From contig NZ_CP113524.1 of assembly GCF_026723765.1 (NCBI RefSeq), forward strand, positions 2,031,001 through 2,095,000: a stretch of DNA of 64,000 nucleotides, in the 5' to 3' direction. Below are positions 42,627 through 58,898 of the stretch, piece by piece. This stretch comes from Lacrimispora xylanolytica. Lineage in GTDB: Bacteria; Bacillota; Clostridia; Lachnospirales; Lachnospiraceae. Position numbers and translations under genes: made by a program. The notes beneath the pieces are model-generated. The model saw only the letters and a program-made list of their open reading frames with translations. It made no database searches and had not been told where the DNA came from. Position 1 is the stretch's first letter. The number at the start of each line of letters is the position of its first letter.

Positions 42627-44759
42627 ATGACAGGTGAGCAATTAACACAGCGAAAAGATATGCTTTTAAAGCTGTTTGAAGACCCTGCCTATGTTCCGAT
42701 GAAGATAAAGGAGATTGCCATACTCCTGGATGTTCCAAAGGGCCAGAGGGAGGATTTAAAGGAAGTGCTGGATGTCCTTGTTTCAGAAGGTAAAATCGGC
42801 ATTACACAAAAAGGAAAATATGGAAAGCCGGACATTGGTTCCATAGCCGGAGTTTTTTTCGGCCATCCCAAAGGCTTTGGGTTTGTTGCAGTTGAGGGAA
42901 TGGAACAGGATGTATTTATTCCCGAGGAGAAGGCGGGTGGAGCGCTCCATGGAGACACCGTACTTATTTCCGTGGAATCAGAGCCTTCCAATGGAAAACG
43001 GTCAGAAGGCCGTGTTTTAAAGGTAGTTAACCATGCTAACAGTGAAATTGTTGGTTTTTATCAGAAAAACAAGAACTTCGGGTTTGTGATACCGGATAAC
43101 CAGAAGCTTTCCAAGGATATATTTGTTCCTCAGGGAAAAGATATGGGAGCGGTAAACGGCCATAAGGTTGTTGTAAAGGTAACAGATTTTGGTGGTCCGG
43201 GGAGAAAGCCGGAAGGAGTCATTACGGAAATTCTTGGGCATGTCAATGATCCGGGAACTGATATTCTTTCCATTGTCCGTGCTTACGGTCTTGCAGAGGA
43301 GTTCCCTGACAGTGTTATGAAGCAGGTGGCAGCCGTTCCTGATGAGATTGATGGAAAGGACATGCAGGGTCGTCTGGATTTAAGAGAACTTCAGACGGTG
43401 ACCATAGACGGGGAAGATGCCAAGGATCTTGATGACGCAATTACCATATCTAAAAAGGGTGATGTGTATACCCTTGGAGTCCATATTGCGGATGTGACCA
43501 ACTATGTAACAGAACACAGCCCTCTTGATGAAGAAGCCCTAAAAAGAGCGACCAGCGTCTATCTTGTTGATCGGGTCATTCCTATGCTGCCTCATAAGCT
43601 TTCAAACGGAATCTGCTCTTTAAATCAGGGAGAAGACCGTCTGGCCTTAAGCTGTATGATGGATATTGATGGAAACGGAGATGTTACTGGTCACAGAATT
43701 GCTGAAACTGTAATTAAAGTAGACCGGAGAATGACATATACAGCAGTTAATGCCATTGTAACAGACCGTGACGAGGCTGTGATGAAGGAATATGAAGAAT
43801 TTGTACCAATGTTCTTCTTAATGAAGGAGCTGGCAGATATTCTCAGGGAAAAAAGGAAAAAAAGAGGCTCCATTGACTTTGATTTCCCAGAGACAAAGGT
43901 CATTCTTGATGAAAGAGGAAAACCTATAGAGATCAAGCCTTATGACCGAAATGCAGCAACTAAGATCATTGAAGACTTTATGCTGATGGCAAATGAGACT
44001 GTAGCGGAAGATTATTTCTGGCAGGAGATTCCCTTCCTTTACCGGACACATGATAATCCAGATCCGGAAAAGATGAAGAGTCTTGCGACTCTCATTAATA
44101 ACTTTGGTTATTCCATCCGCTTGCATAATGGAGAGGTCTATCCAAAAGAAGTACAGAAGCTTTTGGCAAACGCTGAGGATACACCAGAGGAGGCGCTCAT
44201 CAGCCGTCTTGCCTTACGGTCCATGAAGCAGGCGAAGTACACGGTTGGTAACACAGGACATTTCGGTCTGGCAGCCAAGTATTATACTCATTTTACTTCA
44301 CCCATTCGAAGATATCCTGACCTACAGATCCACCGGATCATCAAAGAAAACTTAAGGTCTGGGTTAAGTGAGAAGCGAATCAAGCATTACGACAAGATAT
44401 TAAGTCAGGTCTCGGTTCAGTCTTCTACGATGGAACGGAGAGCCGATGAGGCAGAGAGAGAAACCATAAAGCTTAAGAAATGCGAATATATGTCAAAATA
44501 TATTGGGGAAGAATTCGATGGTGTTATTTCCGGTGTAACCAACTGGGGACTTTATGTAGAGCTTCCTAATACCGTTGAAGGTATGATTCATGTAAACCAG
44601 CTTCAGGATGATTATTATCATTTTGTCGAGGAACATTATGAGCTGGTAGGAGAGATGACAAGAAAGACATATAAGCTGGGGCAGCCCATTCGTGTTGTTG
44701 TGGAGGGGACTGATAAGCTTTTACGTACCATTGATTTTGTTCCGGCAAAAAAATTATAA
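42627..44759 (+). CDS. rnr: Ribonuclease R
   Basis: 710 aa. N-terminal winged helix (about 1-65), two cold-shock domains (about 70-215, including FFGHPKGFGFVAVEG and KNKNFGFVIP), the RNB catalytic domain with the four-Asp centre DGEDAKDLDDAITIS (about 262-276), and a C-terminal S1 domain (GVISGVTNWGLYVELPN). It degrades structured RNA 3' to 5' and works with tmRNA-SmpB in ribosome rescue. The Lys/Arg-rich tail of long RNase R forms is absent. In this genome the usual partner smpB lies 12 kb further on, beyond the pyrimidine locus. Confidence 0.95.
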   Translation: MTGEQLTQRKDMLLKLFEDPAYVPMKIKEIAILLDVPKGQREDLKEVLDVLVSEGKIGITQKGKYGKPDIGSIAGVFFGHPKGFGFVAVEGMEQDVFIPEEKAGGALHGDTVLISVESEPSNGKRSEGRVLKVVNHANSEIVGFYQKNKNFGFVIPDNQKLSKDIFVPQGKDMGAVNGHKVVVKVTDFGGPGRKPEGVITEILGHVNDPGTDILSIVRAYGLAEEFPDSVMKQVAAVPDEIDGKDMQGRLDLRELQTVTIDGEDAKDLDDAITISKKGDVYTLGVHIADVTNYVTEHSPLDEEALKRATSVYLVDRVIPMLPHKLSNGICSLNQGEDRLALSCMMDIDGNGDVTGHRIAETVIKVDRRMTYTAVNAIVTDRDEAVMKEYEEFVPMFFLMKELADILREKRKKRGSIDFDFPETKVILDERGKPIEIKPYDRNAATKIIEDFMLMANETVAEDYFWQEIPFLYRTHDNPDPEKMKSLATLINNFGYSIRLHNGEVYPKEVQKLLANAEDTPEEALISRLALRSMKQAKYTVGNTGHFGLAAKYYTHFTSPIRRYPDLQIHRIIKENLRSGLSEKRIKHYDKILSQVSVQSSTMERRADEAERETIKLKKCEYMSKYIGEEFDGVISGVTNWGLYVELPNTVEGMIHVNQLQDDYYHFVEEHYELVGEMTRKTYKLGQPIRVVVEGTDKLLRTIDFVPAKKL

Positions 44760-44772
44760 ATAGGATTTATGA

Positions 44773-44815
44773 CAGGGATTTAATTTTGCAAGGTCAGAAT
44801 TATATCCCTGTTTTT
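44773..44815 (+). terminator. Terminator after rnr
   Basis: CAGGGAT (44773-44779) pairs with ATCCCTG (44804-44810), followed by TTTTT. Confidence 0.65.
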
Positions 44816-44861
44816 GTCATGAAATCTTTACTTAAGAAATAAAAATGATGTCAGAAAGGCC

Positions 44862-44889
44862 TTGATTTGCCTGAAAAATCCGGTATAAT
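44862..44889 (+). promoter_or_regulatory. Promoter of the PucR-family gene
   Basis: TTGATT (44862-44867), 16-bp spacer, TATAAT (44884-44889). Confidence 0.65.
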
Positions 44890-44915
44890 AGGGAAAACCA
44901 GATAGGAGGGCTTCT

Positions 44916-46076
44916 ATGGCAATTGTCGTAAAAAAACTAGTAAAGAACGCTTATTTCTTATATAAGATGGAATTAGTTGCCGGAAGAAATGGGATGAATA
45001 ATCTGGTTCAGTGGGTTCACATCATTGAAGATGATGCTGTAAGCCCGTTTTTACATGGATATGAACTGGTATTTACCGCCGGAATCTTAAATCAATCGGA
45101 CCACTGGCTTCTTGACTTTGCAAAAAAGCTGAATCAGTCAGGAGTCAGTGCCTTTGTAGTTAATTTAGGGCCTCATACCAGAGAAATACCAAAGGAAGTG
45201 GCTGCATATTGTGATGAGGTGAATATGCCGTTATTTACCATACCATGGGAAACCCGTATGGTTGATATGACCAGGGATTTCTGCCGCCGGATCATGCAAA
45301 ATGACAATGTGGAAAACACCATGTCAACGACCATTAAGAATATTATTTTTAATGTGGGTGATCTGGAATCCCAGATACTTCAGATGGAACGCTATGGCTA
45401 TAAACGAAGTGATACCTTTTGCTTTATCAGTCTTCTGGCGGATAAAAAAGATTCTGCAGAATACGAAGAATATATGGATCGGCTCACCATATATGCAGAA
45501 AAAACAGCTAGAAAGATTCATGAATTATTTATTTCCTTTACTTATAAAGAAAATCTTGTGTTTGTTCTGGTTGCCTACACTGATGAGGAAATAGAATCTT
45601 TTGTCAAAGACTTTTTTGATTATGTAAAACGAGACAACAATGAAGCTCTGGTTCACATGGGAATCAGCTCAAACCAGCCAGGAATCTATAATCAGGAACA
45701 GAATTTTGAACGGTCTATTTCTGCCATGGAAATGGCGGCAAGGCAGAAGGAAAGTGTACTTTATTATGACCAAATGAGTATTTATAAAATCCTTTATGCG
45801 GTAAAGGAGAAGTCTGTATTAAGAAACTTCTACAGTGAATCCATTGGTCTTTTAGAGAAATACGACAGAGAAAATAACACAGATTTAGTGACTTTATTAA
45901 AAACATATCTGGAAAATAACGGAAGCCTCCAATTGGTTTCAGAAAAAATGTACATTCATCGTAACACAGTGACTAACCAGTTAAAAAGAATTGAGACGAT
46001 TACGGGCTTTAATCCCATGGAATTAGAAGATAAGGTAAAATTGTATCTTGGCTTTTATATTCAGGATATCATTTGA
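44916..46076 (+). CDS. PucR family transcriptional regulator
   Basis: 386 aa. N-terminal PucR domain (about 1-125: GMNNLVQWVHIIED, VFTAGI, VNLGPHTREIPKEVAAYCDE), a central GGDEF-like region, and the C-terminal PucR-type helix-turn-helix (LKTYLENNGSLQLVSEKMYI HRNTVTNQLKRIE, about 325-357). PucR regulators activate purine or other nitrogenous-base catabolism. It opens the pyrimidine-degradation locus, is co-oriented with it, and probably binds near 46143-46158 in the operon promoter. Confidence 0.92.
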   Translation: MAIVVKKLVKNAYFLYKMELVAGRNGMNNLVQWVHIIEDDAVSPFLHGYELVFTAGILNQSDHWLLDFAKKLNQSGVSAFVVNLGPHTREIPKEVAAYCDEVNMPLFTIPWETRMVDMTRDFCRRIMQNDNVENTMSTTIKNIIFNVGDLESQILQMERYGYKRSDTFCFISLLADKKDSAEYEEYMDRLTIYAEKTARKIHELFISFTYKENLVFVLVAYTDEEIESFVKDFFDYVKRDNNEALVHMGISSNQPGIYNQEQNFERSISAMEMAARQKESVLYYDQMSIYKILYAVKEKSVLRNFYSESIGLLEKYDRENNTDLVTLLKTYLENNGSLQLVSEKMYIHRNTVTNQLKRIETITGFNPMELEDKVKLYLGFYIQDII

Positions 46077-46142
46077 TACCAATGCAAAATGCTCGTTTTG
46101 CCTTACAAAACAGCCTTTTTCAACCCATTGACAGAATCTTGA

Positions 46143-46158
46143 TTGTGCAGATGCACAA
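46143..46158. promoter_or_regulatory. Palindrome, candidate PucR operator
   Basis: TTGTGCA-GA-TGCACAA, a perfect 7-bp inverted repeat, 21 bp upstream of the -35 element of the promoter at 46180. Confidence 0.6.
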
Positions 46159-46179
46159 TTATCTTTGTTCAACTGCTGG

Positions 46180-46209
46180 TTGCAATCCAGGTTTGACTGT
46201 GCTTATAAT
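46180..46209 (+). promoter_or_regulatory. Promoter of the pyrimidine-degradation operon
   Basis: TTGCAA (46180-46185), 18-bp spacer, TATAAT (46204-46209). Start would be near 46216, giving a leader of about 124 nt. Confidence 0.65.
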
Positions 46210-46281
46210 ACTACCATGTCAAACACGGAAGGAAATACAAAGAAAAACCACAGCGTATTTACTTCTCAAAAAATAATGAAT

Positions 46282-46324
46282 GCAGCGACGATGCTACAAA
46301 AGCCATCGGTCCGCTGCTTTTTTT
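46282..46324 (+). terminator. Leader terminator (attenuator) directly upstream of the first RBS
   Basis: GCAGCG (46282-46287) pairs with CGCTGC (46312-46317), inner CGATG (46289-46293) with CATCG (46304-46308), followed by seven T. The ribosome binding site AGGAGG begins four bases after the T-run, so there is no room for another promoter: transcription of the operon must pass this terminator. Confidence 0.75.
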
Positions 46325-46339
46325 GTAGGAGGAATTAGA

Positions 46340-47674
46340 ATGAAAGGTGAAGAAATTAAAAGTACCTTAATGGAATACAACTTACAGTCCTGGAGCAAGC
46401 AAAAAAGCATTAATCCGATTTCAGTTGAAAAGGCAGAAGGGATTTATTTTTGGGATTACGATGGTAACCGCTATAGTGACATGTCATCTCAGCTTGTAAA
46501 TATGAATCTTGGTTTTGGCAATCCGGCCATCAGCCAGGCAATTAAGAATCAGGTGGATCAGTACTGTTTCGTTGGCCCCTCCTACGGTGCCGAGTCAAGA
46601 GCCATTCTTGCAAAGAAGATCATCGGTCTTATGCCTGATAATATGGGAAAGGTCTTCTTTACCAATGCAGGAGCAGAATCCAATGAAAATGCAGTAAAAA
46701 TTGCAAGAATGTTTACAGGAAAACATAAGATTTTCAGCCGGTATAGAAGCTACCACGGATCTTCCTTTGGAGCTGGTAATTTAACAGGAGAGCCGAGAAG
46801 ATATACCTTAGAGCCAGGCGTTCCAGGTTTTGTAAAATTTTTTGACCCCTATGTCTACAGAGAAGGAATTGAATTTGATTCAGAAGAATTGGCTTCCTCC
46901 TATTACTTAAAGAAACTGGAAGAGCAAATTCAGTATGAGGGCCCGGACAGCGTAGCCGCAATCGTCATGGAGACCATTACCGGATCTAACGGAATCTTAA
47001 TTCCGCCTAAGGGTTATATGCCTGGGGTACGTGCACTTTGTGATAAGTATGGAATCTTAATGATCTGCGATGAGGTCATGACTGGATGGTGCAGGACCGG
47101 AAAGATGTTTGCCTTTGAACACTTTGAAGTTAAGCCGGATATCGTGACCTTTGCTAAAGGAGTTACCTGCGGATATGTTCCTCTTGGAGGCGTGGTGGTA
47201 AGCAAAGAAATTGCAGCCTATTTTGATGATAACCTCTTATCCTGCGGACTTACATACAGCGGTCACCCTCTATCTTGTGCAGCGGGCGTTGCATGTGTAA
47301 ATTATTATGAAGAAGCAGATATTTTAACCAACGTAAATAAGGTGGGCCAGGTATTAGGTGAAGTGCTGGAAGAGTTGAAGCAGCACCATAAAAGTGTAGG
47401 AGATGTTCGCTACATTGGCTTATTCTCAGCAGTGGAACTGGTGAAGGATAAGGAGACGAAGGAGCCGCTGGTGCCATACGGAAAAGATCCAAAGGGCATC
47501 ATGGGAAAAATTACTGGGCTTTTAAAAGAACGGAAGTTTATGACTTACACCCATGAGAATATGGTATTAGTTGCCCCTCCCCTTATCATTACAGAGGAGC
47601 AGCTGAGAGAAGAACTGAAGAAATTAGATGAGGTACTAACGATTGTTGATCAGGAACTTTTAACTTATGCTTAG
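46340..47674 (+). CDS. Class III aminotransferase (probable beta-alanine transaminase)
   Basis: 444 aa from the ATG at 46340 behind AGGAGG; the longer frame from 46280 overlaps the leader terminator. Class III omega-aminotransferase fold: FFTNAGAESNENAVKIAR (cofactor phosphate loop), YRSYHGSS, ICDEVMTGWCRTG (Asp contacting the PLP ring), and the PLP-lysine in VTFAKGVTCGYVPLG (about residue 275). By context it would transfer the amino group of beta-alanine to an oxo acid, giving malonate semialdehyde. Taurine- or GABA-type substrates are alternatives. First structural gene of the operon. Confidence 0.88.
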   Translation: MKGEEIKSTLMEYNLQSWSKQKSINPISVEKAEGIYFWDYDGNRYSDMSSQLVNMNLGFGNPAISQAIKNQVDQYCFVGPSYGAESRAILAKKIIGLMPDNMGKVFFTNAGAESNENAVKIARMFTGKHKIFSRYRSYHGSSFGAGNLTGEPRRYTLEPGVPGFVKFFDPYVYREGIEFDSEELASSYYLKKLEEQIQYEGPDSVAAIVMETITGSNGILIPPKGYMPGVRALCDKYGILMICDEVMTGWCRTGKMFAFEHFEVKPDIVTFAKGVTCGYVPLGGVVVSKEIAAYFDDNLLSCGLTYSGHPLSCAAGVACVNYYEEADILTNVNKVGQVLGEVLEELKQHHKSVGDVRYIGLFSAVELVKDKETKEPLVPYGKDPKGIMGKITGLLKERKFMTYTHENMVLVAPPLIITEEQLREELKKLDEVLTIVDQELLTYA

Positions 47675-47688
47675 AAAAGGGGTGGACT

Positions 47689-48840
47689 ATGGCAACTAAA
47701 TTTATGTTACCAGGGCAGACAATGTTAGGCGCAGATGCATTGGAACACAGTGAAGATGCAATCAAAAGTCTGGGAAAGAAAGCGTTTATCGTAACTGGAA
47801 AAGTAGTAACAAAGACGGGAACAGTTTCTATACTGACAGGATATCTTGACCGATGGAACATAGAACACACCATATTTAATGACATAACCGGCGAGCCAAC
47901 GGATGAGATGATTCTCGCCGGAGTAACGGCTTATAAGGATTCCAATTGTGATTTCATCATTGGAATCGGAGGTGGAAGTCCTTTAGACAGCGCCAAGGCG
48001 ATTGGAGCCATGACAGCGTTAGACGGAGACATCTCTGATTATATGGGACAGGAGCTAAAAGGCAAATTCCCTCCATTGGTACTCATACCCACCACAGCTG
48101 GAACCGGCTCGGAAACAACCAAATTCACTGTTATTAAGGATACAAAAAAAGGAATCAAGATGCTGTTAAAAGGCGATGATCTACTGCCTGAAATCGCCAT
48201 TATTGATCCTGAGTTTACCGTGACAGCACCTAAAAGCATTACGGCTGCCACCGGCATGGATGCCCTGACTCATGCAGTGGAATCTTATATATCCAAAAAG
48301 GCAAATGCCCTTACCGATACGTATGCATTATCTGCAATTAAGCGTATTTTTCAGTATCTTCCTCTTGCCTATGAGGACGGAACGAATTTAAAAGCAAGAG
48401 AGGAGATGGCAATAGCCGCATTCGAAGCCGGTGTCTGCATTAATAATGCTTCGGTAACCATTGTTCATGGCATGAGCCGGCCCATTGGAGCGCTTTTTCA
48501 CATACCTCATGGAATCTCCAATGCAATGATTATCTCAGAGTGCCTTTCTTATGTGGCAGATGGCTGTTACGACCGGTTTGCTGCTATGGCCAGGGTAATT
48601 GGCGCGGCTAAGGAAGAAACGGACGAAAAAGAAGCCAGCAAAGCATTTTTTGCGGAACTGAATAAGCTTTGCGCGAAATGCCACATTCCTGCCATAAAGG
48701 AATATGGAATTAAAAAGGAAGACTTTGAAGCTGCCTTTGATAAGATGGCGAGTGATGCCATGGCAAGCGGAAGTCCTTCCAATACAAGAAAAGAGATAGG
48801 GAAAGAAGATTTGTTGAACATATACAGTAGATTGTTTTAA
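47689..48840 (+). CDS. Iron-containing alcohol dehydrogenase (possible 3-hydroxypropionate dehydrogenase)
   Basis: 383 aa, group III dehydrogenase. NAD(P) loop GIGGGSPLDSAKAIG (about 94-108), and the metal ligands in GMDALTHAVESY (Asp, His) and IVHGMSRPIGALFHIPHG (two His). It is 14 bp behind the aminotransferase gene, so the simplest role is reduction of malonate semialdehyde to 3-hydroxypropionate, disposing of electrons and of a reactive aldehyde. The substrate is inference from context; the family as such is certain. Confidence 0.9.
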   Translation: MATKFMLPGQTMLGADALEHSEDAIKSLGKKAFIVTGKVVTKTGTVSILTGYLDRWNIEHTIFNDITGEPTDEMILAGVTAYKDSNCDFIIGIGGGSPLDSAKAIGAMTALDGDISDYMGQELKGKFPPLVLIPTTAGTGSETTKFTVIKDTKKGIKMLLKGDDLLPEIAIIDPEFTVTAPKSITAATGMDALTHAVESYISKKANALTDTYALSAIKRIFQYLPLAYEDGTNLKAREEMAIAAFEAGVCINNASVTIVHGMSRPIGALFHIPHGISNAMIISECLSYVADGCYDRFAAMARVIGAAKEETDEKEASKAFFAELNKLCAKCHIPAIKEYGIKKEDFEAAFDKMASDAMASGSPSNTRKEIGKEDLLNIYSRLF

Positions 48841-48874
48841 ATCATGATACTTCCTACTTATCGTAATTAACTTA

Positions 48875-48906
48875 CAAGGGTGTAAGGCGAAAGCTTTACA
48901 CCCTTG
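48875..48906 (+). other. Intercistronic GNRA-type hairpin
   Basis: CAAGGGTGTAAGGC pairs with GCTTTACACCCTTG (one G-U pair) around a GAAA loop; no T-run. Between the dehydrogenase and transporter genes: a processing or stability element, or weak terminator. Confidence 0.55.
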
Positions 48907-48928
48907 TCTGCATAACAGGAGGACTTAA

Positions 48929-49756
48929 ATGGTGAACGTAGAAAATATAGAGGAAGAATTTAAAGAAAGAGACCCAGCCCTTCCCAGAGAAACTGAGATT
49001 AAGATTGAAAACCTGAGCGTGAAATTTCCTGACAAAGATGGAGGAGAGCCGATTGTCGCTTTATCCAACGTGAATCTGGAAATCAAGCAAGGTGAATTTA
49101 TCTCTCTTTTAGGGCCATCGGGATGTGGAAAAACAACCTTACTTCGGACAATTGCCGATTTACAGGAAAAGACGTCAGGGACTATTTCCGTTCGGGGCCT
49201 GTCACCAAGAGAGATCCGCCTGCAGAAAAAATATGGTATTGTATTTCAGTCCCCGGTACTTTATGAATGGCGGACGGTACGAAGAAATGTATGTATGCCT
49301 ATGGAGCTTCTTGGAATGCCCAAAAAGGACCGGACGAAGCGGGTAACTAAAATGCTTGAGCTGGTGGGGCTGATGGAATTTGGACAGAAATACCCTCATG
49401 AATTAAGCGGAGGCATGCAGCAAAGAGTCAATATCGCAAGAGCCCTGGCAATTCGTCCGGAGATACTTTTAATGGATGAACCATTTTCAGCCCTTGATGA
49501 ATTCACGAAGGAAAAACTGCACGAAGATCTTTTGCGCATCTGGCAAAAGACCAATAAAACCATATTATTTGTGACCCATAATATTCAGGAGGCCGTTTAT
49601 TTATCAGACCGGGTTGTTGTTTTATCTCCACATCCAGGCCGTGTATCTGCCATTGTGGATATTGACCTTCCAAGACCAAGACCCATAGAAATGAAGGAAA
49701 CCCAGGAGTTTAATGCCTTGGTATCTAAGGTAAGAAACAGCTTTGAGGGGGTATGA
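48929..49756 (+). CDS. ABC importer ATP-binding subunit (SsuB/TauB/ThiZ type)
   Basis: 275 aa. Walker A GPSGCGKTTLLR, Q-loop FQSPVLYEW, signature LSGGMQQRVNIA, Walker B ILLMDEPFSALDE, switch His in FVTHNIQEAVYLSDRV: an active importer ATPase of the nitrate/sulfonate/thiamine-precursor class. The first 20 residues are an acidic extension. The stop overlaps the next gene's start (ATGA at 49753), so it is translationally coupled to the permease. Together with two permeases and a binding protein it should supply the substrate of this catabolic locus. Confidence 0.93.
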   Translation: MVNVENIEEEFKERDPALPRETEIKIENLSVKFPDKDGGEPIVALSNVNLEIKQGEFISLLGPSGCGKTTLLRTIADLQEKTSGTISVRGLSPREIRLQKKYGIVFQSPVLYEWRTVRRNVCMPMELLGMPKKDRTKRVTKMLELVGLMEFGQKYPHELSGGMQQRVNIARALAIRPEILLMDEPFSALDEFTKEKLHEDLLRIWQKTNKTILFVTHNIQEAVYLSDRVVVLSPHPGRVSAIVDIDLPRPRPIEMKETQEFNALVSKVRNSFEGV

Positions 49757-50571
49757 TTATGATACGGATGAAAAAAATACTCTCCTCCAAATATATGGTG
49801 ACCCTGGTTTGGGTTATAGGTTTAATCATTGTTTGGGAGATTGGGGCTACGGTCATTGAAGGAACCAAACGGTCTCCGGAGAATGTGCTGCCTCATCTTC
49901 ATCAGATCCTGGCTTCTGTTTTTACCACCAATAAGGTGAATGGAACTCAGACCGCATTTCAGATCGTGTTAAGCAATGCGGGAATTACTCTTCTTAGGGC
50001 AGGAATCGGGTTTGTCATAGGTGCTGGCTTAGGATTTGTTCTGGCACTGGTCATGAATCTCTTTCTGCCGGTTGAAAAAATATTATTTCCATATCTGATG
50101 ATGATTCAGATGATTCCTATCCTTGGTATGGCGCCTATCGTCCTTGCCATTACAAAGGACATTAATAAAAGCCGTATCATCATAGCAGCCATACTGACCT
50201 TTTATCCCGTTGCCACCAATACCCTGGCAGGTTTTAAATCAGTTGAAAAGGAAAAACACGAACTCATGTATTCTCTTGCAGCCAGTAAATTTGAGATATA
50301 TCGAAAGCTGCTCATCCCATCGTCTCTGCCTTATTTCTTTACAGGGCTTAAGATATCGGCACCAATGGCGATTACTGCGGCAATTCTGGTAGATACGTTA
50401 CAGGGCGGAGCAGGTCTTGGAACCGCACTTTCTCAATCCTTAAAGCATGCAACTACCATATATATTTTCTGGCAGATCGTATTTTTAAGCGCCATGATTG
50501 GAATCCTCAGCTTTTATCTCATGGTTTTACTGGAGCAGGCGATATCACCTTATAAGAGAAAGAAAAAGTAG
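49753..50571 (+). CDS. ABC importer permease 1 (SsuC-type)
   Basis: 272 aa, about six membrane helices. The cytoplasmic coupling motif is seen in AASKFEIYRKLLIPSSLPYF FTGLKIS (about residues 175-200). It starts within the stop of the ATPase gene (ATGA). A second, related permease follows 11 bp later, so the importer uses a heterodimeric channel, as some thiamine-precursor and riboflavin (RibXY-type) systems do. Substrate by context: pyrimidine or ureide. Confidence 0.9.
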   Translation: MIMIRMKKILSSKYMVTLVWVIGLIIVWEIGATVIEGTKRSPENVLPHLHQILASVFTTNKVNGTQTAFQIVLSNAGITLLRAGIGFVIGAGLGFVLALVMNLFLPVEKILFPYLMMIQMIPILGMAPIVLAITKDINKSRIIIAAILTFYPVATNTLAGFKSVEKEKHELMYSLAASKFEIYRKLLIPSSLPYFFTGLKISAPMAITAAILVDTLQGGAGLGTALSQSLKHATTIYIFWQIVFLSAMIGILSFYLMVLLEQAISPYKRKKK

Positions 50572-50582
50572 AGGGAGATAAC

Positions 50583-51392
50583 ATGAAGAAAAAAAGATAT
50601 CTGAAATGGGAGAAACAGTCCCTCACAACTGTTTTATATCCAGTCATATTTGGTATCCTTTTGCTGATTCTATGGCAGACACAGCTGTTGCACAAGATGA
50701 TAGGAGCTGATACCTTTGCACTGCCTCTTCCGGGAAGGATTTTAAATATTATTCTGGATAACGGGCCAGCCATTAGAAGGAATGTAACAGCCACTGTCAT
50801 TGTTGCGGCAGGAGGATTATTCTTTGGCTCTGTCTTTGGATATTTACTTGGAATCATTGCTACTGTGTTTCCCAAATGGGGAGCAGGGGGCTTAAGCATT
50901 GCATCTGCCATCAGTGCAGTTCCAATCATTGCAATTGCTCCCATACTTAATAATCTGACAAAGGATTTCAGCGATGATGCCAATATAAGAAGCATGTTTG
51001 CAAAGACCATCGTGGTTACAATCACCTGTACTGTGGCAATGAGCATCAACGCATACAGGGGATTAAATGAATTAAAGCCTTACAGTCTGGATTTAATGAA
51101 AAGCTATGCAGCAGGAAAATTAACGGTCTTTCTAAAGCTAAGAATTCCAAATAGCGTACCTTATATATTTGTTGCCTTACGTGTCAGCGTTCCAGCCAGT
51201 ATTATCAGCGCCCTGGTCAGTGAGTATTTTGCTGAATTTATTATAGGAGTTGGCAGACAGATCAGGGAAAATATTGTGCTCGCCCAATATGCAACGGCCT
51301 GGGCTTATATCGTAGTAGCATGTGCCATTGGAATTATTATGTACGGCATACTGCTTTGTGCGGAAGGAGCTTTGCTGAGAGGAAGAAAATAA
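50583..51392 (+). CDS. ABC importer permease 2 (SsuC-type)
   Basis: 269 aa, six membrane helices, with coupling motif YAAGKLTVFLKLRIPNSVPYI FVALRVS near residues 175-201 in the same place as permease 1. The two permeases are clear relatives but not recent duplicates. GAGGGAG precedes the ATG. The following gene, 26 bp on, is the lipoprotein binding component. Confidence 0.9.
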   Translation: MKKKRYLKWEKQSLTTVLYPVIFGILLLILWQTQLLHKMIGADTFALPLPGRILNIILDNGPAIRRNVTATVIVAAGGLFFGSVFGYLLGIIATVFPKWGAGGLSIASAISAVPIIAIAPILNNLTKDFSDDANIRSMFAKTIVVTITCTVAMSINAYRGLNELKPYSLDLMKSYAAGKLTVFLKLRIPNSVPYIFVALRVSVPASIISALVSEYFAEFIIGVGRQIRENIVLAQYATAWAYIVVACAIGIIMYGILLCAEGALLRGRK

Positions 51393-51418
51393 AAACTAGT
51401 TTAGAGGAGGAATTAATT

Positions 51419-52597
51419 ATGAGAAGACGAAAAGGAAAGTTAACCGCAGCAGCATTAACCATTGCACTTACCACAGCAGCATTGACCGCTTGCGGAGGCA
51501 GCACTGGTAAAGAAACGACTCAAACAACATCAGCTTCAGAAAGTACCACAGCAAAAGCAGAAGAGACAACAGAAGCAAAAGGCGCTGAGAGTTCAGGCAA
51601 ATATTATGCGGCTGATGCCACTGCAAAAGATATTGTGGAGGATGCAGCAAAAAAAGGCAAGGTGGGAAACTGGGGACTTGGCAATGAATACGAGGTTCAG
51701 GCTCTCTTAAGCAAATACGGCCAGGAGACCGGATTTTTAAGTCAGGCATTTGATATGGATGGCTTTGACGATGATTCCATTTTATTAGCGTCAGCCATGA
51801 CCTACAATGAGCTTGGACTGGTGGAGAATTCCTATCAGGGAGGATATGGATATGGAGATTCCGTTAAATTCATTGATATGAATGACGAAGGCGTAGCAAT
51901 GCTTGAGGATAATATTTTTACCACGAAGGAATTTGCCAAGGCAAATCCAAATACCGTAAAAGCATTTGTCCGCGCCTCTATGAAGGGCTGGGAATATGCC
52001 TGTGCCAATCCAGAGGAAGCAGCAAAAATCGTATTTGAAGCAGGCTCCTCCGTATCCAGCGATCATCAGGCTTATATGGCCGAAGAAGTAAAGAAATTAG
52101 TGGAAACAGATACAAAAGGAAACAAGGTAGTTGATCTTGGAAAGTTAGATGATGAGGCATTGCAGCAGACGCTTGACCTGGCTAAAAAATACATCAAATT
52201 AAACGACAGTGCTGCAGCAGAAAAATTACAGACGTTAACCTTAGACGATTTCCGTGATGCATCTTACTGGACAGATGCCATGAGTGATGCAACACTTGGA
52301 GCACCGGAGAAAACGGATGTATCCATTCAGTTAAAATGGCTTCCACAGGCCCAGTTCATGGGATATTATGTGGCAGCAGCAAAAGGCTATTATAAGGATG
52401 CAGGATTAAATGTGACCATCACACCAGGCGGTGGTGATATCGGAGAAACAACAGCCGTTAATTCCGGTCAGGTAGATTTTGGTGTGACATGGGATGCAAA
52501 CCTGATTGCAGCAAATGCAGGCGGTATGAATCTGGTGGCAGTATCTCAGGTTTATCAAAGATCAGGCTTAGTACTGGTGTATAAGGTAAACAAATAA
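51419..52597 (+). CDS. Lipoprotein substrate-binding protein, circularly permuted NMT1/ThiY-like domain
   Basis: 392 aa from the ATG at 51419 (GAGGAGG box); the frame from 51320 lies in the permease gene. Lipoprotein signal with LTAC (Cys25), Ser/Thr/Glu-rich linker to about residue 60. The binding domain is in the wrong order: residues about 80-290 carry what is normally the second part (KVGNWGLGNEYEVQALL, ASAMTYNELGLV, GVAMLEDNIFTTKEFAKANP), while residues 299-392 carry the normal N-terminal part (VSIQLKWLPQAQFMGYYVAA, KGYYKDAGLNVTITPGGG, SGQVDFGVTW). NMT1-like proteins bind pyrimidine-type ligands, which suits this locus. Intact frame, no sign of decay. Confidence 0.88.
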   Translation: MRRRKGKLTAAALTIALTTAALTACGGSTGKETTQTTSASESTTAKAEETTEAKGAESSGKYYAADATAKDIVEDAAKKGKVGNWGLGNEYEVQALLSKYGQETGFLSQAFDMDGFDDDSILLASAMTYNELGLVENSYQGGYGYGDSVKFIDMNDEGVAMLEDNIFTTKEFAKANPNTVKAFVRASMKGWEYACANPEEAAKIVFEAGSSVSSDHQAYMAEEVKKLVETDTKGNKVVDLGKLDDEALQQTLDLAKKYIKLNDSAAAEKLQTLTLDDFRDASYWTDAMSDATLGAPEKTDVSIQLKWLPQAQFMGYYVAAAKGYYKDAGLNVTITPGGGDIGETTAVNSGQVDFGVTWDANLIAANAGGMNLVAVSQVYQRSGLVLVYKVNK

Positions 52598-52611
52598 TAA
52601 GCAGCTATCAT

Positions 52612-52633
52612 CGTGGGTGCCTTTGCACCCACG
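52612..52633 (+). other. Intercistronic hairpin after the binding-protein gene
   Basis: CGTGGGTGC (52612-52620) pairs with GCACCCACG (52625-52633), 9 bp perfect, no T-run. Such hairpins often stabilise abundant binding-protein mRNA within transporter operons. Confidence 0.6.
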
Positions 52634-52655
52634 AATCCGTTAAGGAGGTAACGTG

Positions 52656-54035
52656 ATGGATTTATTAATTAAGAATGGAACAATTGTAACATCGGAAGAA
52701 ACCTATACAGGTGATATTGCAGTGAAAGACGGAAAAATCGTAAGCATAGGAACCGATTTAAAGGTAGATGCAAAAAAGGTTGTTGATGCCACAGGAAAGC
52801 TTGTTTTACCAGGAGCCATTGATGTACATACGCACCTGGCAATGCCCTTTGGAGGCACGGTTTCAGCAGACGGCTACTTATCAGGAACAAGAGCAGCAGC
52901 CTGCGGCGGAGTTACCACGGTCTTTGATTATCCGATTCAGAGAAAAGGAAAAGGGATTGTGGAAACAGTTCAGGAAAGAAAGGATATGTGCGATGCTGAG
53001 GCTTGTGTCGATTACGCATTTCACTGTTGTATCACCGATTTAAACGGCGGCGCCATTTTGGATGAATTTGAAGATGCGGTGGATTATGGCGTGACCAGTT
53101 TTAAATGTTTCCTTGTTTATAAGAAGGAAGGCATGATGGTAGATGACGGAACCCTGGTTCGCATTCTTAAAAGGGCTAAGGAAGCAGGAGCCATAACTAA
53201 TATTCACGCAGAGAATCCGGATGTGATCGATTTTAATATTGAGCAGTTTAAGGCAGAAGGAAAAACATCTCCGTGGTATCATTATTTAAGCAGACCGGAG
53301 TTTGTAGAGGCAGAAGCTGACAAACGGGCCGTACACTGGGCAAAATCTGTGGATGCACCTCTTTATATCGTTCATATGGCGGATAAGGAAGGGCTGGAGG
53401 CTGCTGTTGCAGCAAAAAGAGAAGGTCATAACATCTTCATTGAAACCTGTCCTCAGTATCTGGAATTTACATGTGACGTTTATAAAAGGGAAGATGGAAG
53501 GAACTTTGTCTGCTCCCCGCCGATGAAGGACCAGGAGAGCCAGGATGCCCTGTGGAAAGCCATTATGGATGGAAGCATTGATACGGTAGCGACCGACCAT
53601 TGCCCGTTCCAGAGTTACGAAAAAGACTGGGGAAAAGATGATTTTACAAAGATTCCCAACGGCTGTGCAGGAATTGAGAATCTATATCCTTATATGCTTT
53701 CAAAAGCCAACGAAGGGAAGATAAGCTTTAACCGTGCAGTAGAATTATGTGCTTCCAATCCGGCTAAGATTTTTGGCTGTACGCAAAAGGGTTCTCTGAC
53801 CATTGGAAAGGATGCCGATATTGTCATTTATGACAAGGAAAAAGAGCTGACCATTTCCGTTGACAATATGCATTCAGATTATGATCACACCATATGGGAA
53901 GGGATTAAAGTACAGGGGTATCCGGTTCAGACTTATGTGAGAGGAACCTTAGTATACGATGAAGGAGAATTTGTAGGGACTCCAGGTTTTGGAGCCTTTG
54001 TAAAACGTGAACCGCAAAAATATGGCTTGGAGTGA
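52656..54035 (+). CDS. hydA: Dihydropyrimidinase/hydantoinase
   Basis: 459 aa from the ATG at 52656; AAGGAGG is seven bases before it, and the GTG at 52653 is too close. Cyclic amidohydrolase with both metals' ligands: His58/His60 in DVHTHL, carboxylated Lys in VTSFKCFLVY (about 150), His in NIHAEN and YIVHMADKEG, Asp in VATDHCPF. It opens dihydrouracil to N-carbamoyl-beta-alanine, the second step of the reductive pathway. Hydantoin would be an alternative substrate, but the adjacent dehydrogenase argues for dihydropyrimidines. Confidence 0.92.
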   Translation: MDLLIKNGTIVTSEETYTGDIAVKDGKIVSIGTDLKVDAKKVVDATGKLVLPGAIDVHTHLAMPFGGTVSADGYLSGTRAAACGGVTTVFDYPIQRKGKGIVETVQERKDMCDAEACVDYAFHCCITDLNGGAILDEFEDAVDYGVTSFKCFLVYKKEGMMVDDGTLVRILKRAKEAGAITNIHAENPDVIDFNIEQFKAEGKTSPWYHYLSRPEFVEAEADKRAVHWAKSVDAPLYIVHMADKEGLEAAVAAKREGHNIFIETCPQYLEFTCDVYKREDGRNFVCSPPMKDQESQDALWKAIMDGSIDTVATDHCPFQSYEKDWGKDDFTKIPNGCAGIENLYPYMLSKANEGKISFNRAVELCASNPAKIFGCTQKGSLTIGKDADIVIYDKEKELTISVDNMHSDYDHTIWEGIKVQGYPVQTYVRGTLVYDEGEFVGTPGFGAFVKREPQKYGLE

Positions 54036-54039
54036 TCGT

Positions 54040-55560
54040 ATGGATAAATTATTATACAAAGAAACTTCCTTGTTAGAGGAAGCAGGCGGTTGCCTTTTGT
54101 GTCATGAGGCGCCTTGTACCAAGGCTTGCCCGTATGAGCTGGAGATTGATAAAGTGATACGCAGCTATCGCTTTGAAAATATTTTTGGTGCCATAAACCG
54201 TCTGCCGGAAGCTCTTCCTTGCAGCAGCTGTGTAGATAAGCCTTGTCTGTCGGCCTGTCTAAAAGGAAAAATCAATGCACCAGTTCCCATTCCTGATATG
54301 TTTGAAAAGCTCACCTCCTATGAAAAGGTGGAGAAAGAGGAAGTAGACTTATCCATTGACTTCTGCGGTATTCCGTGTGAAAATCCTTTCTTCCTGTCCT
54401 CCTCCGTTGTGGGAAGCAATTATGAGATGGTGGCTAAGGCCTTTGATATGGGCTGGGCAGGGGTGGCATTTAAAACCATAGGAACCTTTGTTCCTAAGGA
54501 GGTTTCCCCAAGATTTGATGCACTGAGAAAAGAAGCCCTTCCTTTTGTAGGCTTTAAAAATATAGAGCAGATATCCGACCACACTTTAGAAGAAAATCTG
54601 GCATTTATCAGAGATTTAAAGCGGGATTATCCCACGAAAATATTTGTTGCTTCCATTATGGGGCAGACAGAAGAAGAGTGGACGTACCTTGCCAAAATCG
54701 TGACGGAAGCCGGTGCAGATATTATTGAATGCAATTTTTCCTGTCCTCACATGGCTTCCAATGGATTAGGCTCTGATGTAGGTCAGAATCCGGAATTGGT
54801 GGCCGCTTACACTAAGGCAGTAAAAAAAGGAACCCATCTTCCTGTTCTGGCTAAAATGACGCCCAATATTGGTAACATGGAAATCCCTGCCCTTGCTGCT
54901 GTAGAGGCAGGAGCCGATGGAATTGCGGCCATTAATACCATTAAGAGTATTATGAACGTAGATACAGATTCCTTTGTATCCGGCCCCTTTGTTTCCGGCA
55001 AAACAAGCGTGGGAGGTTACTCTGGTAAGGCAGTTAAACCCATTGCCCTTCGCTTTATCCATACCATGAAGACTCATCCGGGACTGACCCATACACCGAT
55101 AAGCGGTATGGGTGGAATTGAATCCTGGAAAGATGCTTTTGAATTTATGGCACTTGGCTGTGAAAATATACAGGTCACGACCTCAGTCATGCAGTATGGC
55201 TATCGTATCATTGATGACATGATCGAAGGGATGAAATATTACTTAAGCACTCATGGCTATAAAAGCGTAAAAGAAATCGTTGGGAAGGCGCTTGTTCATA
55301 CCATACCTGCAGATGAGCTGGAACGGGATTCCATTTGTTATCCCAAGTTTGACCGGAATCAGTGCGTGGGCTGCGGACGGTGTTATATCTCCTGTTATGA
55401 TGGTGGTCATCAGGCCTTAAGACAGGATAAGGATACGAAAAAGCCGATTATGGACGGCAAAAAATGTGTAGGCTGCCATCTCTGCTTGCTGGTGTGTCCG
55501 GTAGGTGCAATTTCAGCCGGAACCAGAGTAAAAAAGCGGGAGAACCAACCAGCGAATTAA
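54040..55560 (+). CDS. preA: Dihydropyrimidine dehydrogenase subunit PreA with fused N-terminal Fe-S domain
   Basis: 506 aa from the ATG at 54040 (TTGGAG box; an alternative ATG at 54022 overlaps hydA). Residues 1-95 resemble the Fe-S domain that begins PreT/mammalian DPD: GGCLLCHEAPCTKACPYELE and CSSCVDKPCLSACLKG. From about 105 the protein follows E. coli PreA closely: FMN barrel with ECNFSCPH...GLGSDVGQ and KMTPNIG, then two 4Fe-4S motifs CVGCGRCYISCYDGGHQ and CVGCHLCLLVCPVGA. The FAD and NAD(P)H modules of PreT/DPD are missing and no preT is nearby, so electrons must come from another carrier. Catalyses uracil to dihydrouracil. Confidence 0.92.
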   Translation: MDKLLYKETSLLEEAGGCLLCHEAPCTKACPYELEIDKVIRSYRFENIFGAINRLPEALPCSSCVDKPCLSACLKGKINAPVPIPDMFEKLTSYEKVEKEEVDLSIDFCGIPCENPFFLSSSVVGSNYEMVAKAFDMGWAGVAFKTIGTFVPKEVSPRFDALRKEALPFVGFKNIEQISDHTLEENLAFIRDLKRDYPTKIFVASIMGQTEEEWTYLAKIVTEAGADIIECNFSCPHMASNGLGSDVGQNPELVAAYTKAVKKGTHLPVLAKMTPNIGNMEIPALAAVEAGADGIAAINTIKSIMNVDTDSFVSGPFVSGKTSVGGYSGKAVKPIALRFIHTMKTHPGLTHTPISGMGGIESWKDAFEFMALGCENIQVTTSVMQYGYRIIDDMIEGMKYYLSTHGYKSVKEIVGKALVHTIPADELERDSICYPKFDRNQCVGCGRCYISCYDGGHQALRQDKDTKKPIMDGKKCVGCHLCLLVCPVGAISAGTRVKKRENQPAN

Positions 55561-55582
55561 GAGAAAAGAGGAGGTAAGCAGA

Positions 55583-56809
55583 ATGATTCAATGCGATTAT
55601 GAGAGAATGGAAGATAAGATAAAAACCTTTGGACGGTTCGGTGATACGGGAAAAGGAGGAATTACCAGATTTTCCTTATCCGAAGAGGCGATAGCTGCAA
55701 GAACTGAATTTGTAAAACGAATGGAGGCAATTGGGGCCACAGTTACCACAGACGATATGGCTAATATGTATGCCACCATTTCCGGCACAGAGGATTTGCC
55801 TGCCATTTTCTCTGGCTCTCATATGGACTCGGTGCGTCAGGGGGGAAATTATGATGGGATTTTAGGCGTCTTAACCGCTATGGAGGTGGCTGAGACCATC
55901 GTAAAAGAAAAAATACCCCACAGACACCCTATTACAGTCATTGTGTGGACCAACGAAGAAGGGGCAAGATTTGAACCGGCCATGATGTCTTCCGGTGTGA
56001 TCTGCGGAAAGTTTGATAAAGATACCATGTTTGCTTCCAAAGCAAAGGATATTCCAGAACTGACCTTTGGAGAGGCTTTGGAAAAAAGCGGATTTAAAGG
56101 AAAAGAAGAAAACCGTATGGACCCGTTAAAAACAAAGGCTTTGGTAGAGCTTCATATCGAACAGGGCCCTGTATTGGAAGCAGAAGGAATTGACATCGGT
56201 GTAGTGGAAGGTGTTTGCGGCATGATTAATTATGAATTTACCTTTACCGGTCAGGCAGGCCACGCAGGAACGACTCCTATGAAGTACCGCAAGGATGCCC
56301 TATATGCAGCCGTAAAGACCATTCAGTATCTTCATGATGAGCTGGATCAGCTGGATAGTAAGCTTGTTTATACCACAGGTAAAATTTCTGCTCACCCTAA
56401 CATCCATACCATTATTCCCGATGAGGTAAGAATCACCCTGGATGCCAGACATCAGGACCCGGAAGTAATCAAGCAGGTGCTTGCAGTGATTAAGAAGATC
56501 CCAAGTGTTGTAGAGCAGTGCAAGGTAAGCTACGAGGAAGCCTGGTCCAGAAAGACCGTAAGCTTTACCTCTGAGCTGGTAGATTATGTGGAAAAAAGCG
56601 CTCAGGAATGCGGGTATTCCAACCGGAGAATCTACAGCGGTCCAGGGCACGATGCACAGTTTGCCATTGACATCGTTCCCACCACCATGATATTTGTGCC
56701 CAGTGTGGGGGGCCATAGCCATTGTGAAATCGAATACACTCCTGTGGAAAACTGTTTAAAAGGAGCAAATGTACTTTTAAATACCATACTTCATATTGAC
56801 AGACAGTAA
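55583..56809 (+). CDS. M20 family amidohydrolase (probable N-carbamoyl-beta-alanine amidohydrolase)
   Basis: 408 aa. Binuclear metal site: GSHMDSVRQGGNYDGILG (His, Asp), WTNEEGARFEP (Glu pair), LHIEQGPVLE (His) and GPGHDAQF (His). This is the allantoate amidohydrolase/beta-ureidopropionase/L-carbamoylase subgroup. After PreA and HydA the expected reaction is N-carbamoyl-beta-alanine to beta-alanine, CO2 and ammonia; allantoate is the main alternative. Last gene of the operon, followed by a 19-bp perfect terminator stem. Confidence 0.88.
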   Translation: MIQCDYERMEDKIKTFGRFGDTGKGGITRFSLSEEAIAARTEFVKRMEAIGATVTTDDMANMYATISGTEDLPAIFSGSHMDSVRQGGNYDGILGVLTAMEVAETIVKEKIPHRHPITVIVWTNEEGARFEPAMMSSGVICGKFDKDTMFASKAKDIPELTFGEALEKSGFKGKEENRMDPLKTKALVELHIEQGPVLEAEGIDIGVVEGVCGMINYEFTFTGQAGHAGTTPMKYRKDALYAAVKTIQYLHDELDQLDSKLVYTTGKISAHPNIHTIIPDEVRITLDARHQDPEVIKQVLAVIKKIPSVVEQCKVSYEEAWSRKTVSFTSELVDYVEKSAQECGYSNRRIYSGPGHDAQFAIDIVPTTMIFVPSVGGHSHCEIEYTPVENCLKGANVLLNTILHIDRQ

Positions 56810-56819
56810 GTCATCATAG

Positions 56820-56875
56820 AGTTCTTTCTGGTAAATACTATCACAGGTATTTACCAGAAAGAACTTTATTTTTTG
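56820..56875 (+). terminator. Terminator of the pyrimidine operon
   Basis: A 19-bp perfect stem (56820-56838 with 56847-56865, outermost AGTTC/GAACT), 8-nt loop, then TTATTTTTT. Confidence 0.9.
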
Positions 56876-56946
56876 TGATTGTTACTTAGACCTTTACTAA
56901 AAATAAACAATGTAGTATCATAAACGTAGCGTATTTATGGAGGTCA

Positions 56947-57417
56947 ATGAAATTGGGAGAACGAATTAAACTAATAGCCAACAATAAAAAAGCCTATCAC
57001 GACTATTTTATTGATGAAAAATATGAAGCAGGGATTGAACTGGCAGGAACAGAGGTTAAATCCATGCGCATGGGAAAGTGCAGCGTAAAGGAATCTTTTG
57101 TTAGAATAGACAAAGGGGAAGTGTTTGTTTACGGGATGAACATCAGCCCTTATGAAAAAGGAAATATCTTTAACAAGGACCCTCTGCGTGTCAGAAAGCT
57201 GCTGCTTCATCGGGCTGAAATTTCAAAATTAGATGGGAAGATGGCGACTAAGGGATATACCCTTGTTCCTCTCCAGGTTTATTTTAAAGGCAGTCTGGTA
57301 AAGGTGGAGATCGGCCTTGCCAGAGGTAAAAAGCTTTATGACAAAAGAGATGATATAGCAAAGAAGGACCAGCGCAGAGAGCTGGAACGTGATTTTAAAG
57401 TAAAGAATCTATCGTAG
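56947..57417 (+). CDS. smpB: SsrA-binding protein SmpB
   Basis: 156 aa, full length. OB-fold core with [28 protein letters not shown] and [25 protein letters not shown], and the basic C-terminal tail ([28 protein letters not shown]) that enters the mRNA channel. It loads tmRNA onto stalled ribosomes. Its usual neighbours secG-rnr are upstream but separated by the pyrimidine locus. No tmRNA gene (ssrA) is seen in the 300 bases after it. Confidence 0.97.
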
Positions 57418-57476
57418 ATAATTGCCCGTGCAGAAGATGGCCTATGGCCTTTTTGTATGGCACCGCCAGAAAACTT

Positions 57477-57547
57477 ATTGCCGAATTTGTATACAGAAAA
57501 CGAACCATGTTTTTATGGTTACTGTATACAGATTCGGCAATTTTTTT
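57477..57547 (+). terminator. Large three-tier terminator after smpB
   Basis: ATTGCCGAAT/ATTCGGCAAT (57477-57486, 57532-57541), TATACAG/CTGTATA (57490-57496, 57522-57528) and AACCAT/ATGGTT (57503-57508, 57515-57520) stack into one long hairpin followed by seven T. Confidence 0.85.
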
Positions 57548-57731
57548 GTTGCCAAAGCCAAAAGAAGGTTACGGGCATTTTCCCTTTCGTTATAGGTAAA
57601 ATATATAGCTGGTTATAGATTATATCAACAAACTCAGTAATATACATATTATAACAATAAACATATAAAACCTATATAAATGTATGTAAATGCACGGCAA
57701 ACCTTTAAATATAAAAAATGGAGGGAACACA
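57548..57731 (+). other. A/T-rich leader of the trans-sulfuration pair
   Basis: The region is strongly A/T-rich and must hold the promoter of the gene at 57732, but several overlapping TATAAT-like boxes prevent a single assignment. No S-box, T-box or other riboswitch motif is recognisable. It contains the first copy (57667-57680) of a 14-bp repeat. Confidence 0.4.
57667..57680 (+). repeat. 14-bp repeat AAAACCTATATAAA, first copy
   Basis: An identical 14-mer occurs at 59836-59849 on the same strand, so the two copies flank the two-gene trans-sulfuration unit. Confidence 0.5.
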
Positions 57732-58898
57732 ATGGGCAAAAAAAGTTATAAGCATATTTATACGGCATTCATCCATGGAGGTATCTATGGAGATGAAAGA
57801 ACCGGAGCTGTGAATGTACCGATTTACCAGACTTCAACCTACGAACAGATACACCTTGGACAGCATACCGGGTATGAATATTCAAGAACTGGCAATCCAA
57901 CAAGAGAAGCGCTGGAAGCATTGATTGCGGAGCTGGAGGGAGGAGTGGCTGGTTTTGCATTCGCTTCCGGTATGGCAGCCATTTCTGCGGTATTAACCTT
58001 ATTTCATTCCGGCGATAAAGTAATAATTTCAAGCAATGTTTATGGAGGAACCTTCCGGGTACTGGACAAAATCTTTAAAAATTTTGACATTCATTACTCC
58101 ATTGAGGATACTACAGATTTGGAAGCTCTGGAAAAGAGTATCACAAAGGAGGTTAAGGCAATCTTTATTGAGAGTCCGGCCAATCCCCTTTTGACAATTA
58201 CAGATTTAAAAGCAGTTGCCGATTTAGCAAAAAACCATGGTATTCTATCCATTGTGGATAATACCTTTATGACTCCTTATTTACAAAGACCGATCCAGCT
58301 CGGTATGGATATTGTAGTCCATAGTGGGACCAAGTATTTAGGAGGCCACAGTGACTTAATTGCAGGCCTTGTTGTTGTGAATCAAAAAGAATTAGCGGAT
58401 AAACTTGCATTTATTCAAAATGCGACAGGAGGTATTTTGCAGCCCTTTGATTCCTTTCTACTAATACGTGGTATCAAAACATTAGGGGTTCGTCTTGACA
58501 GACACGTAGAGAATGCTTCCAAAATTGCAGATTATCTTTTAAAACATCCCGCGGTTAAAAAGATTTATTATCCGGGCCTTAAAGATTTTCCTGGTTATGA
58601 AATCAATAAAAAGCAGGCAAAAAATGGAGGTGCCATGCTTTCCTTTGAATTAAAAGAGGAATATGATATTCGGAAATTCTATGATGGATTAGAGCTGATC
58701 GCACTTGCAGAAAGCCTTGGAGGTGTTGAATCATTGGTATGTCATCCCGCCAGCATGACACATGCCTCGATTCCATATAAGGTGCGCCAGAAGGTAGGAA
58801 TTACGGAAGGTTTGATTCGTTTATCCGTGGGAATTGAACATGTAGATGAAATAATTGATGATTTAGAAACTGCCATAGAAGCAGCCAGGGAGAACTAG
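57732..58898 (+). CDS. Trans-sulfuration PLP enzyme (cystathionine gamma-lyase/gamma-synthase family, MccB/MetB-like)
   Basis: 388 aa from the ATG at 57732 (GGAGGG box); the frame from 57690 has no RBS. Cys/Met-metabolism fold type I enzyme: NVPIYQTSTYEQ, YEYSRTGNPTREALE, the PLP-stacking Tyr region, SIVDNTFMTPYLQRP, and the PLP-lysine in VHSGTKYLGGHSD (about residue 198). Family members make or cleave cystathionine. It is paired with a cysteine-synthase-type gene 1 bp downstream, the arrangement of the MccB-MccA reverse trans-sulfuration pair (homocysteine to cysteine), which is the preferred reading. Confidence 0.88.
   Translation: MGKKSYKHIYTAFIHGGIYGDERTGAVNVPIYQTSTYEQIHLGQHTGYEYSRTGNPTREALEALIAELEGGVAGFAFASGMAAISAVLTLFHSGDKVIISSNVYGGTFRVLDKIFKNFDIHYSIEDTTDLEALEKSITKEVKAIFIESPANPLLTITDLKAVADLAKNHGILSIVDNTFMTPYLQRPIQLGMDIVVHSGTKYLGGHSDLIAGLVVVNQKELADKLAFIQNATGGILQPFDSFLLIRGIKTLGVRLDRHVENASKIADYLLKHPAVKKIYYPGLKDFPGYEINKKQAKNGGAMLSFELKEEYDIRKFYDGLELIALAESLGGVESLVCHPASMTHASIPYKVRQKVGITEGLIRLSVGIEHVDEIIDDLETAIEAAREN

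Follow-up and report, generated by a model that had tools for sequence, protein, structure and literature searches.

A circularly permuted NMT1/THI5-like substrate-binding lipoprotein in a probable pyrimidine degradation operon of Lacrimispora xylanolytica

The window analysed here, a stretch of 64,000 nucleotides from Lacrimispora xylanolytica (contig NZ_CP113524.1, positions 2,031,001 to 2,095,000), contains at 51419-52597 on the forward strand an open frame of 392 amino acids plus stop that codes for a putative substrate-binding protein (SBP) of an ATP-binding cassette (ABC) importer. An earlier note on this gene had claimed that its motif order is inverted relative to NMT1/ThiY-like proteins, with the cut at the hinge between the lobes, and that the open frame with its good signal peptide and lipobox looks like a working circular permutant rather than debris. 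The gene and its parts are as follows.

51419..52597, + strand: circularly permuted NMT1/THI5-like substrate-binding lipoprotein (permuted SBP), from the open reading frame, PF09084 scans and colinear relatives
51419..51493, + strand: signal peptide with lipobox LTAC and Cys25, the latter near-invariant in 54 aligned members
51494..51598, + strand: disordered, low-complexity linker rich in Ser, Thr and Glu, residues 26-60, with the weakest constraint (predicted local distance difference test, pLDDT, <50 at residues 24-53 of the model)
51623..51652, + strand: new N-terminal helix, residues 69-78, replacing in models and rotated alignment the canonical loop and short helix that precede KKVGSW
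51656..52294, + strand: native second block, residues 80-292 (KVGNWGLGNEYE ... SYWTDAMS), canonically after the first block (PF09084 scans, rotated alignment)
52271..52315, + strand: junction of about 15 residues (285-299) that connects the native C-terminus with the native N-terminus (rotated alignment)
52316..52588, + strand: native first block, residues 300-390 (DVSIQLKWLPQAQFMGYYVAA ... QRSGLVLVYK), canonically directly behind the signal peptide (PF09084 scans, rotated alignment)

The Pfam NMT1 profile (PF09084, cut-off 20.5 bits) gave the permuted SBP 108.5 bits, split over two stretches, the better of which placed residues 311-389 on profile positions 2-80. Scanned alone, residues 299-392 covered profile positions 2-81 (69.3 bits) and residues 60-298 covered positions 157-216 (47.5 bits, at protein residues 138-201); the protein thus does not follow the profile in linear order, the profile start lying C-terminally and the profile end upstream of it. 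Rotation of the sequence restored a single match over profile positions 2-216 with 110.4 bits, and the profile was matched in all 54 aligned members (E ≤ 0.001). The solved structures 4nmy and 3ix1 were aligned as two swapped pieces with both the single sequence and the family profile, and no best stretch spanning both blocks was found among the 11 chains of the former or the seven chains of the latter comparison. Both blocks are 39-50% identical to the canonical form; in the alignment, the canonical C-terminus stops near ..KYWEAA and the native N-terminus opens with ..PEKTDVSIQLKW. It is clear that the swapped order is real, as confirmed by the agreement between the scans of the separate halves and the rotation.

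The AlphaFold model of the permuted SBP is a confident two-lobe fold (pLDDT 86, predicted TM-score 0.82), whose predicted strands and helices are those of the model of a canonical cousin in rotated order; the cousin's model matches 3ix1 and 4nmy over its full length. Folds were compared by VIA-align, re-aligning the best 1000 chains from Foldseek. According to the lists of structural elements, the cut comes after strand E384-390, corresponding to E134-139 of the canonical form. Going by the type II fold, we take this strand to be the first interlobe crossover, which would put the cut at the hinge where the earlier note had placed it.

A contig search revealed 135 loci encoding relatives; counts out of 80 refer to the best-scoring 80, some of which are near-copies or come from the same genomes or species as are found in a set of 99 relatives' genomes. 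All 80 loci are colinear with the permuted SBP over at least residues 80-387, and 12 of them are, by their record titles, from spirochaetes. In the 99 relatives' genomes (the source genome included), ten matched at 1e-10, eight being colinear with the permuted query and two canonical, aligned in two pieces; the same colinear order was seen in the copy from G021 (99% identical) and in three further copies from the same genus (82, 86 and 88%). A sample of the class gave matches at 1e-22 in 10 of 391 genomes, six with the complete permuted and four with the canonical order, G838 having both, and G656 contained a seventh permuted-order start, broken off by the contig end. At the level of the phylum, 23 of 398 genomes matched at 1e-15, namely two permuted (the source genome and G343), seven canonical and 14 with one block only. 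The source genome, a single contig, has one permuted copy, the three weaker matches being other NMT1 proteins. What had been taken for a single odd gene therefore belongs to a widespread family, whereas the odd order itself stands; its recurrence in many separate assemblies, together with the open frames, the presence of the importer genes and the strong purifying selection described below, also upholds the view that the gene is not debris. A canonical NMT1 protein of the source genome (G000 C1, 1153599-1154315) matches PF09084 in full length with 234.6 bits and, judged by its resemblance to 4nmy, would be of the hydroxymethylpyrimidine (HMP)/thiamin type.

A loose lipobox pattern was matched in 71 of the 80 permuted members, and L060, one of the nine misses, was read as having a variant lipobox. 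The signals of the other eight, seven from spirochaetes (L040, L048, L055-L058 and L065) and one from Clostridiales (L037), end by eye like signal-peptidase-I sites. As these eight are apparently not lipoproteins, retention of the topology does not strictly depend on anchoring, and a strict tie between permutation and lipid anchoring was rejected.

The evolutionary trees of the SBPs were built on blocks rotated into register, the permuted L050 and L084 being absent from the rotated sets as they were missed by the motif filter. In the careful tree (30 permuted and 16 canonical rows, with the outgroup and a long Deinococcus row left out), one branch separates the two forms, with one change and ultrafast bootstrap and Shimodaira-Hasegawa-like approximate likelihood ratio test (SH-aLRT) values of 100/100, and the same split was present in 100% of 200 bootstrap trees. 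A tree without the outgroup (55 permuted, 17 canonical) likewise required one change (SH-aLRT 100), and the tree of permease B (PermB) showed the same permuted/canonical split. Six spirochaete rows occupy two places among the Bacillota rows of the careful tree, which suggests horizontal transfer of the spirochaete permuted forms. In comparisons with five relatives, the ratio of nonsynonymous to synonymous substitution rates was 0.03-0.13 for the whole gene, 0.019-0.091 in residues 80-292, at most 0.035 in residues 301-392, and 0.12-0.40 in the linker, where it was computable in four of the five. Furthermore, 24 listed positions are identical in 17/17 non-HMP canonical rows and in 97% or more of the 79 permuted rows, examples from both blocks being W85, N130, E131, H216, Q217, W307, Q312, F313, G338 and D340.

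The genes around the permuted SBP are listed below, the tblastn counts referring to a match anywhere in a locus on either strand, with many loci being short contigs.

46280..48840, + strand: class III aminotransferase and iron-containing alcohol dehydrogenase (tblastn 54/80 and 38/80 loci)
48929..49756, + strand: ABC ATPase of the same importer (76/80)
49753..50571, + strand: permease A (PermA; 79/80, the match in L051, 25%, being probably a cross-match to permease B)
50583..51392, + strand: permease B (80/80; no NCBIfam match at E ≤ 1e-10)
52653..54035, + strand: dihydropyrimidinase/hydantoinase, PydB-like (TIGR02033, 488 bits, cut-off 393.25; 73/80)
54040..55560, + strand: PreA-like dihydropyrimidine dehydrogenase (NF006183, 581.4 bits, cut-off 335, residues 102-499; 70/80)
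55583..56809, + strand: M20 carbamoylase/hydantoinase-family amidase, PydC-like (TIGR01879, 387 bits, cut-off 204; 44/80)

The order ATPase-permease-permease-SBP beside a dihydropyrimidinase and PreA/PydA is that expected of an importer belonging to a Pyd operon. The aminotransferase and the alcohol dehydrogenase fit a route from beta-alanine via malonic semialdehyde to 3-hydroxypropionate and would take the PydD/PydE roles. A regulator encoded further upstream, which we take to be PucR-like, has AdeR as its best NCBIfam model (58.5 bits, cut-off 700) and was matched in 23/80 loci. In L092 the operon looks scrambled: PermB shares the strand of the SBP, and dihydropyrimidinase, PermA and ATPase are encoded on the opposite one. 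Directly behind the stop codon of the permuted SBP, ahead of the dihydropyrimidinase gene, lies a strong 10-bp hairpin (52611-52634) by which the amount of receptor mRNA relative to permease mRNA may be set. Of 76 related loci, 41 have a simple hairpin of 6 bp or more in the first 70 nt past the stop, a count made without a shuffled control. Rfam gave no matches at gathering scores in window positions 43500-58000. The PreA-like protein has about 100 extra N-terminal residues with cysteine motifs and no space for FAD/NADPH domains, and this extension resembles that of the ferredoxin-dependent PydAc, which has already been described in reductive pyrimidine (Pyd) gene clusters of Clostridium chromiireducens (PMC7332683). 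The enzyme set of those clusters is the same as here, and the word "transporter" is absent from the main text of the paper.

Related importers also occur with a canonical receptor. In G080 and G093, an operon of dihydropyrimidinase-PreA-ATPase-PermA-PermB-SBP has its SBP in canonical order; the first five products in G080 are 78, 67, 71, 44 and 42% identical to those of the window, and its SBP is 44-46% identical to the permuted SBP in two swapped blocks. Nineteen comparison loci comprised 17 with a canonical SBP, one permuted (L151) and one truncated by the contig end with a permuted-order start (L150). The dihydropyrimidinase was present in the fetched stretch of six canonical loci (L096, L097, L139, L152, L154 and L155), and the other 11 had an aminotransferase, an M20 enzyme, or neither of these. 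Dihydropyrimidinase also stands beside the canonical SBP on plasmids recorded for Deinococcus, Sinorhizobium and Thalassospira; near the canonical SBP of an Azospirillum plasmid record lie genes for a semialdehyde dehydrogenase and an aminotransferase. Where the canonical SBP adjoins dihydropyrimidinase, as in some lineages, it serves the same pathway as the permuted one, though not demonstrably in all. Two separate loci of genome G838 carry one form each, canonical at L149 (C49) and permuted at L151 (C36); an ATPase and permeases of its own accompany either one, and pyd enzymes were seen only at L151.

These observations make it probable that an NMT1-derived receptor of the pyd-operon ABC importer, with ligands of the uracil/thymine type, arose by a single, old permutation whose site was the first interlobe crossover. 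The permuted SBP would be the extracytoplasmic receptor of an importer in the reductive pyrimidine degradation (pyd) operon, and the first ~90 residues of its mature domain would have been relocated behind the native C-terminus via the ~15-residue junction, with the secretion signal and linker now running straight into the second lobe. Flytrap closure of the lipid-anchored receptor and its docking on permeases A and B would proceed as for the canonical form. The anchor would now be close to the hinge, on the second lobe, and of the two covalent crossings between the lobes one would be lost. The rearrangement probably began with a tandem duplication, followed by fusion in frame and trimming; intermediates were not encountered, no systematic search for them having been made. 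From the operon context, the ligand should be of the pyrimidine type, such as uracil/thymine or a dihydropyrimidine/hydantoin.

Several points weigh against this reading. The first quick SBP tree (55/79 permuted, 18 canonical, a very long outgroup) required two changes, and neither the PermA tree with two changes, containing the very long and probably wrongly assigned row L051, nor the ATPase tree with four was clean; moreover, the root was assumed from the canonical order elsewhere in NMT1. The 80/80 count covers the best-scoring of 135 loci, and searching with the permuted order biases the result towards permuted relatives. The fold was predicted without templates, and ligand and transport are likewise inferred. 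With dihydropyrimidinase at only 6/17 canonical loci, function is supported less firmly by kinship than by the permuted operon.

It is unlikely, but should be weighed seriously, that the permuted family is real and binds another ligand, for example a xanthine-like compound or thiamine-pyrimidine, with the pyd genes adjacent for another reason. The titles of the structures 3ix1 and 4nmy name formylaminopyrimidine and thiamin as ligands of NMT1 relatives; several rings are substrates for the products of hydantoinase-type genes, hydantoin-propionate hydrolase models match below cut-off, and 11/17 canonical relatives have no dihydropyrimidinase in the fetched stretch. The permuted loci argue otherwise, carrying dihydropyrimidinase in 73/80 and PreA in 70/80 cases although several are short contigs, as do three of the four plasmid records with canonical relatives, in which dihydropyrimidinase is present, the fourth having the semialdehyde dehydrogenase and aminotransferase.

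Very improbable is the explanation that the order is an ancient topology like that of OpuAC, the family of which is presumably PF04069, and not a permutation of an NMT1 protein. The permuted model does align sequentially to OpuAC over nearly the whole chain, with a moderate Z; membership of that family was rejected, its profile being unlisted for the permuted SBP (E ≤ 1) or the 54 members (E ≤ 0.001). OpuAC itself is a two-lobe glycine betaine-binding protein (PDB 2B4L/2B4M), tethered in B. subtilis by an N-terminal lipid (PMC2861598), and circular-permutation relatives of it have been reported (PMC2395249). Misassembly or decaying debris, to which the swapped order alone would point and in favour of which nothing else was found, is ruled out by the same order in 80/80 kept loci from other assemblies, the single-contig genome, the open frames under strong purifying selection and a conservation across genera and phyla that already refutes it.

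The probable pyrimidine receptor of the pyd operon is of interest as order-swapped proteins are easily misannotated or dismissed as debris. With a canonical receptor in the pyd operons of some lineages and a permuted one in others, nature offers a clean experiment, and with the pair the effects of tether position and hinge connectivity on binding, closure and docking can be put to the test. For anaerobes, the permuted SBP is also a candidate for the receptor in pyrimidine uptake. Among gut anaerobes, A. hadrus, which has preTA and hydA, is reported to convert 5-fluorouracil (PMC11036815).

Compared with the NMT1/THI5-like proteins (PF09084; formylaminopyrimidine-binding 3ix1, thiamin-bound 4nmy, Thi5), the permuted SBP has both blocks and the predicted element set in common, but the blocks stand in the opposite linear order and its termini follow the presumed first crossover strand; the canonical cousin aligns to the NMT1/THI5 structures over its full length. 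Judged by search listings, no natural permutant of the NMT1 family is reported in an open-access library, which lacks most subscription papers. Natural SBP permutants are already known among the glycine-betaine-binding OpuAC relatives and in TpMglB-2 (Tp0684), a tethered SBP of the proposed "Type Ic/Cluster Bc" whose N-terminal segment has moved to the C-terminus and whose topology has reported homologues in treponemes and Gram-positive bacteria (PMC4990184); these hosts broadly match the groups carrying the permuted SBP. No PF13407 (Peripla_BP_4) match was listed for the permuted SBP at E ≤ 1, and no second permutant of the TpMglB-2 type was seen in the source genome among the 15 of 26 PF13407 matches that span nearly all of the profile without a break; the other 11 are partial and were left aside, so that absence is unproven. 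TpMglB-2 has a type I sugar-binding fold, and its permutation adds a fourth crossover, whereas the permuted SBP would lose one crossing. For TpMglB-2, adaptation to anchoring has been put forward as a possible reason for the permutation (PMC4990184). The eight of 80 apparently lipobox-free members speak against tethering as a simple cause of recurrent permutation. It is a tentative and rather doubtful idea that lobe-crossover permutation is a recurrent, selected solution in the SBPs of Gram-positive bacteria and spirochaetes, in which an anchor on the second lobe and a freed hinge strand tune closure or docking; if true, permuted and canonical pyd receptors should differ measurably in kinetics while sharing the same ligand.
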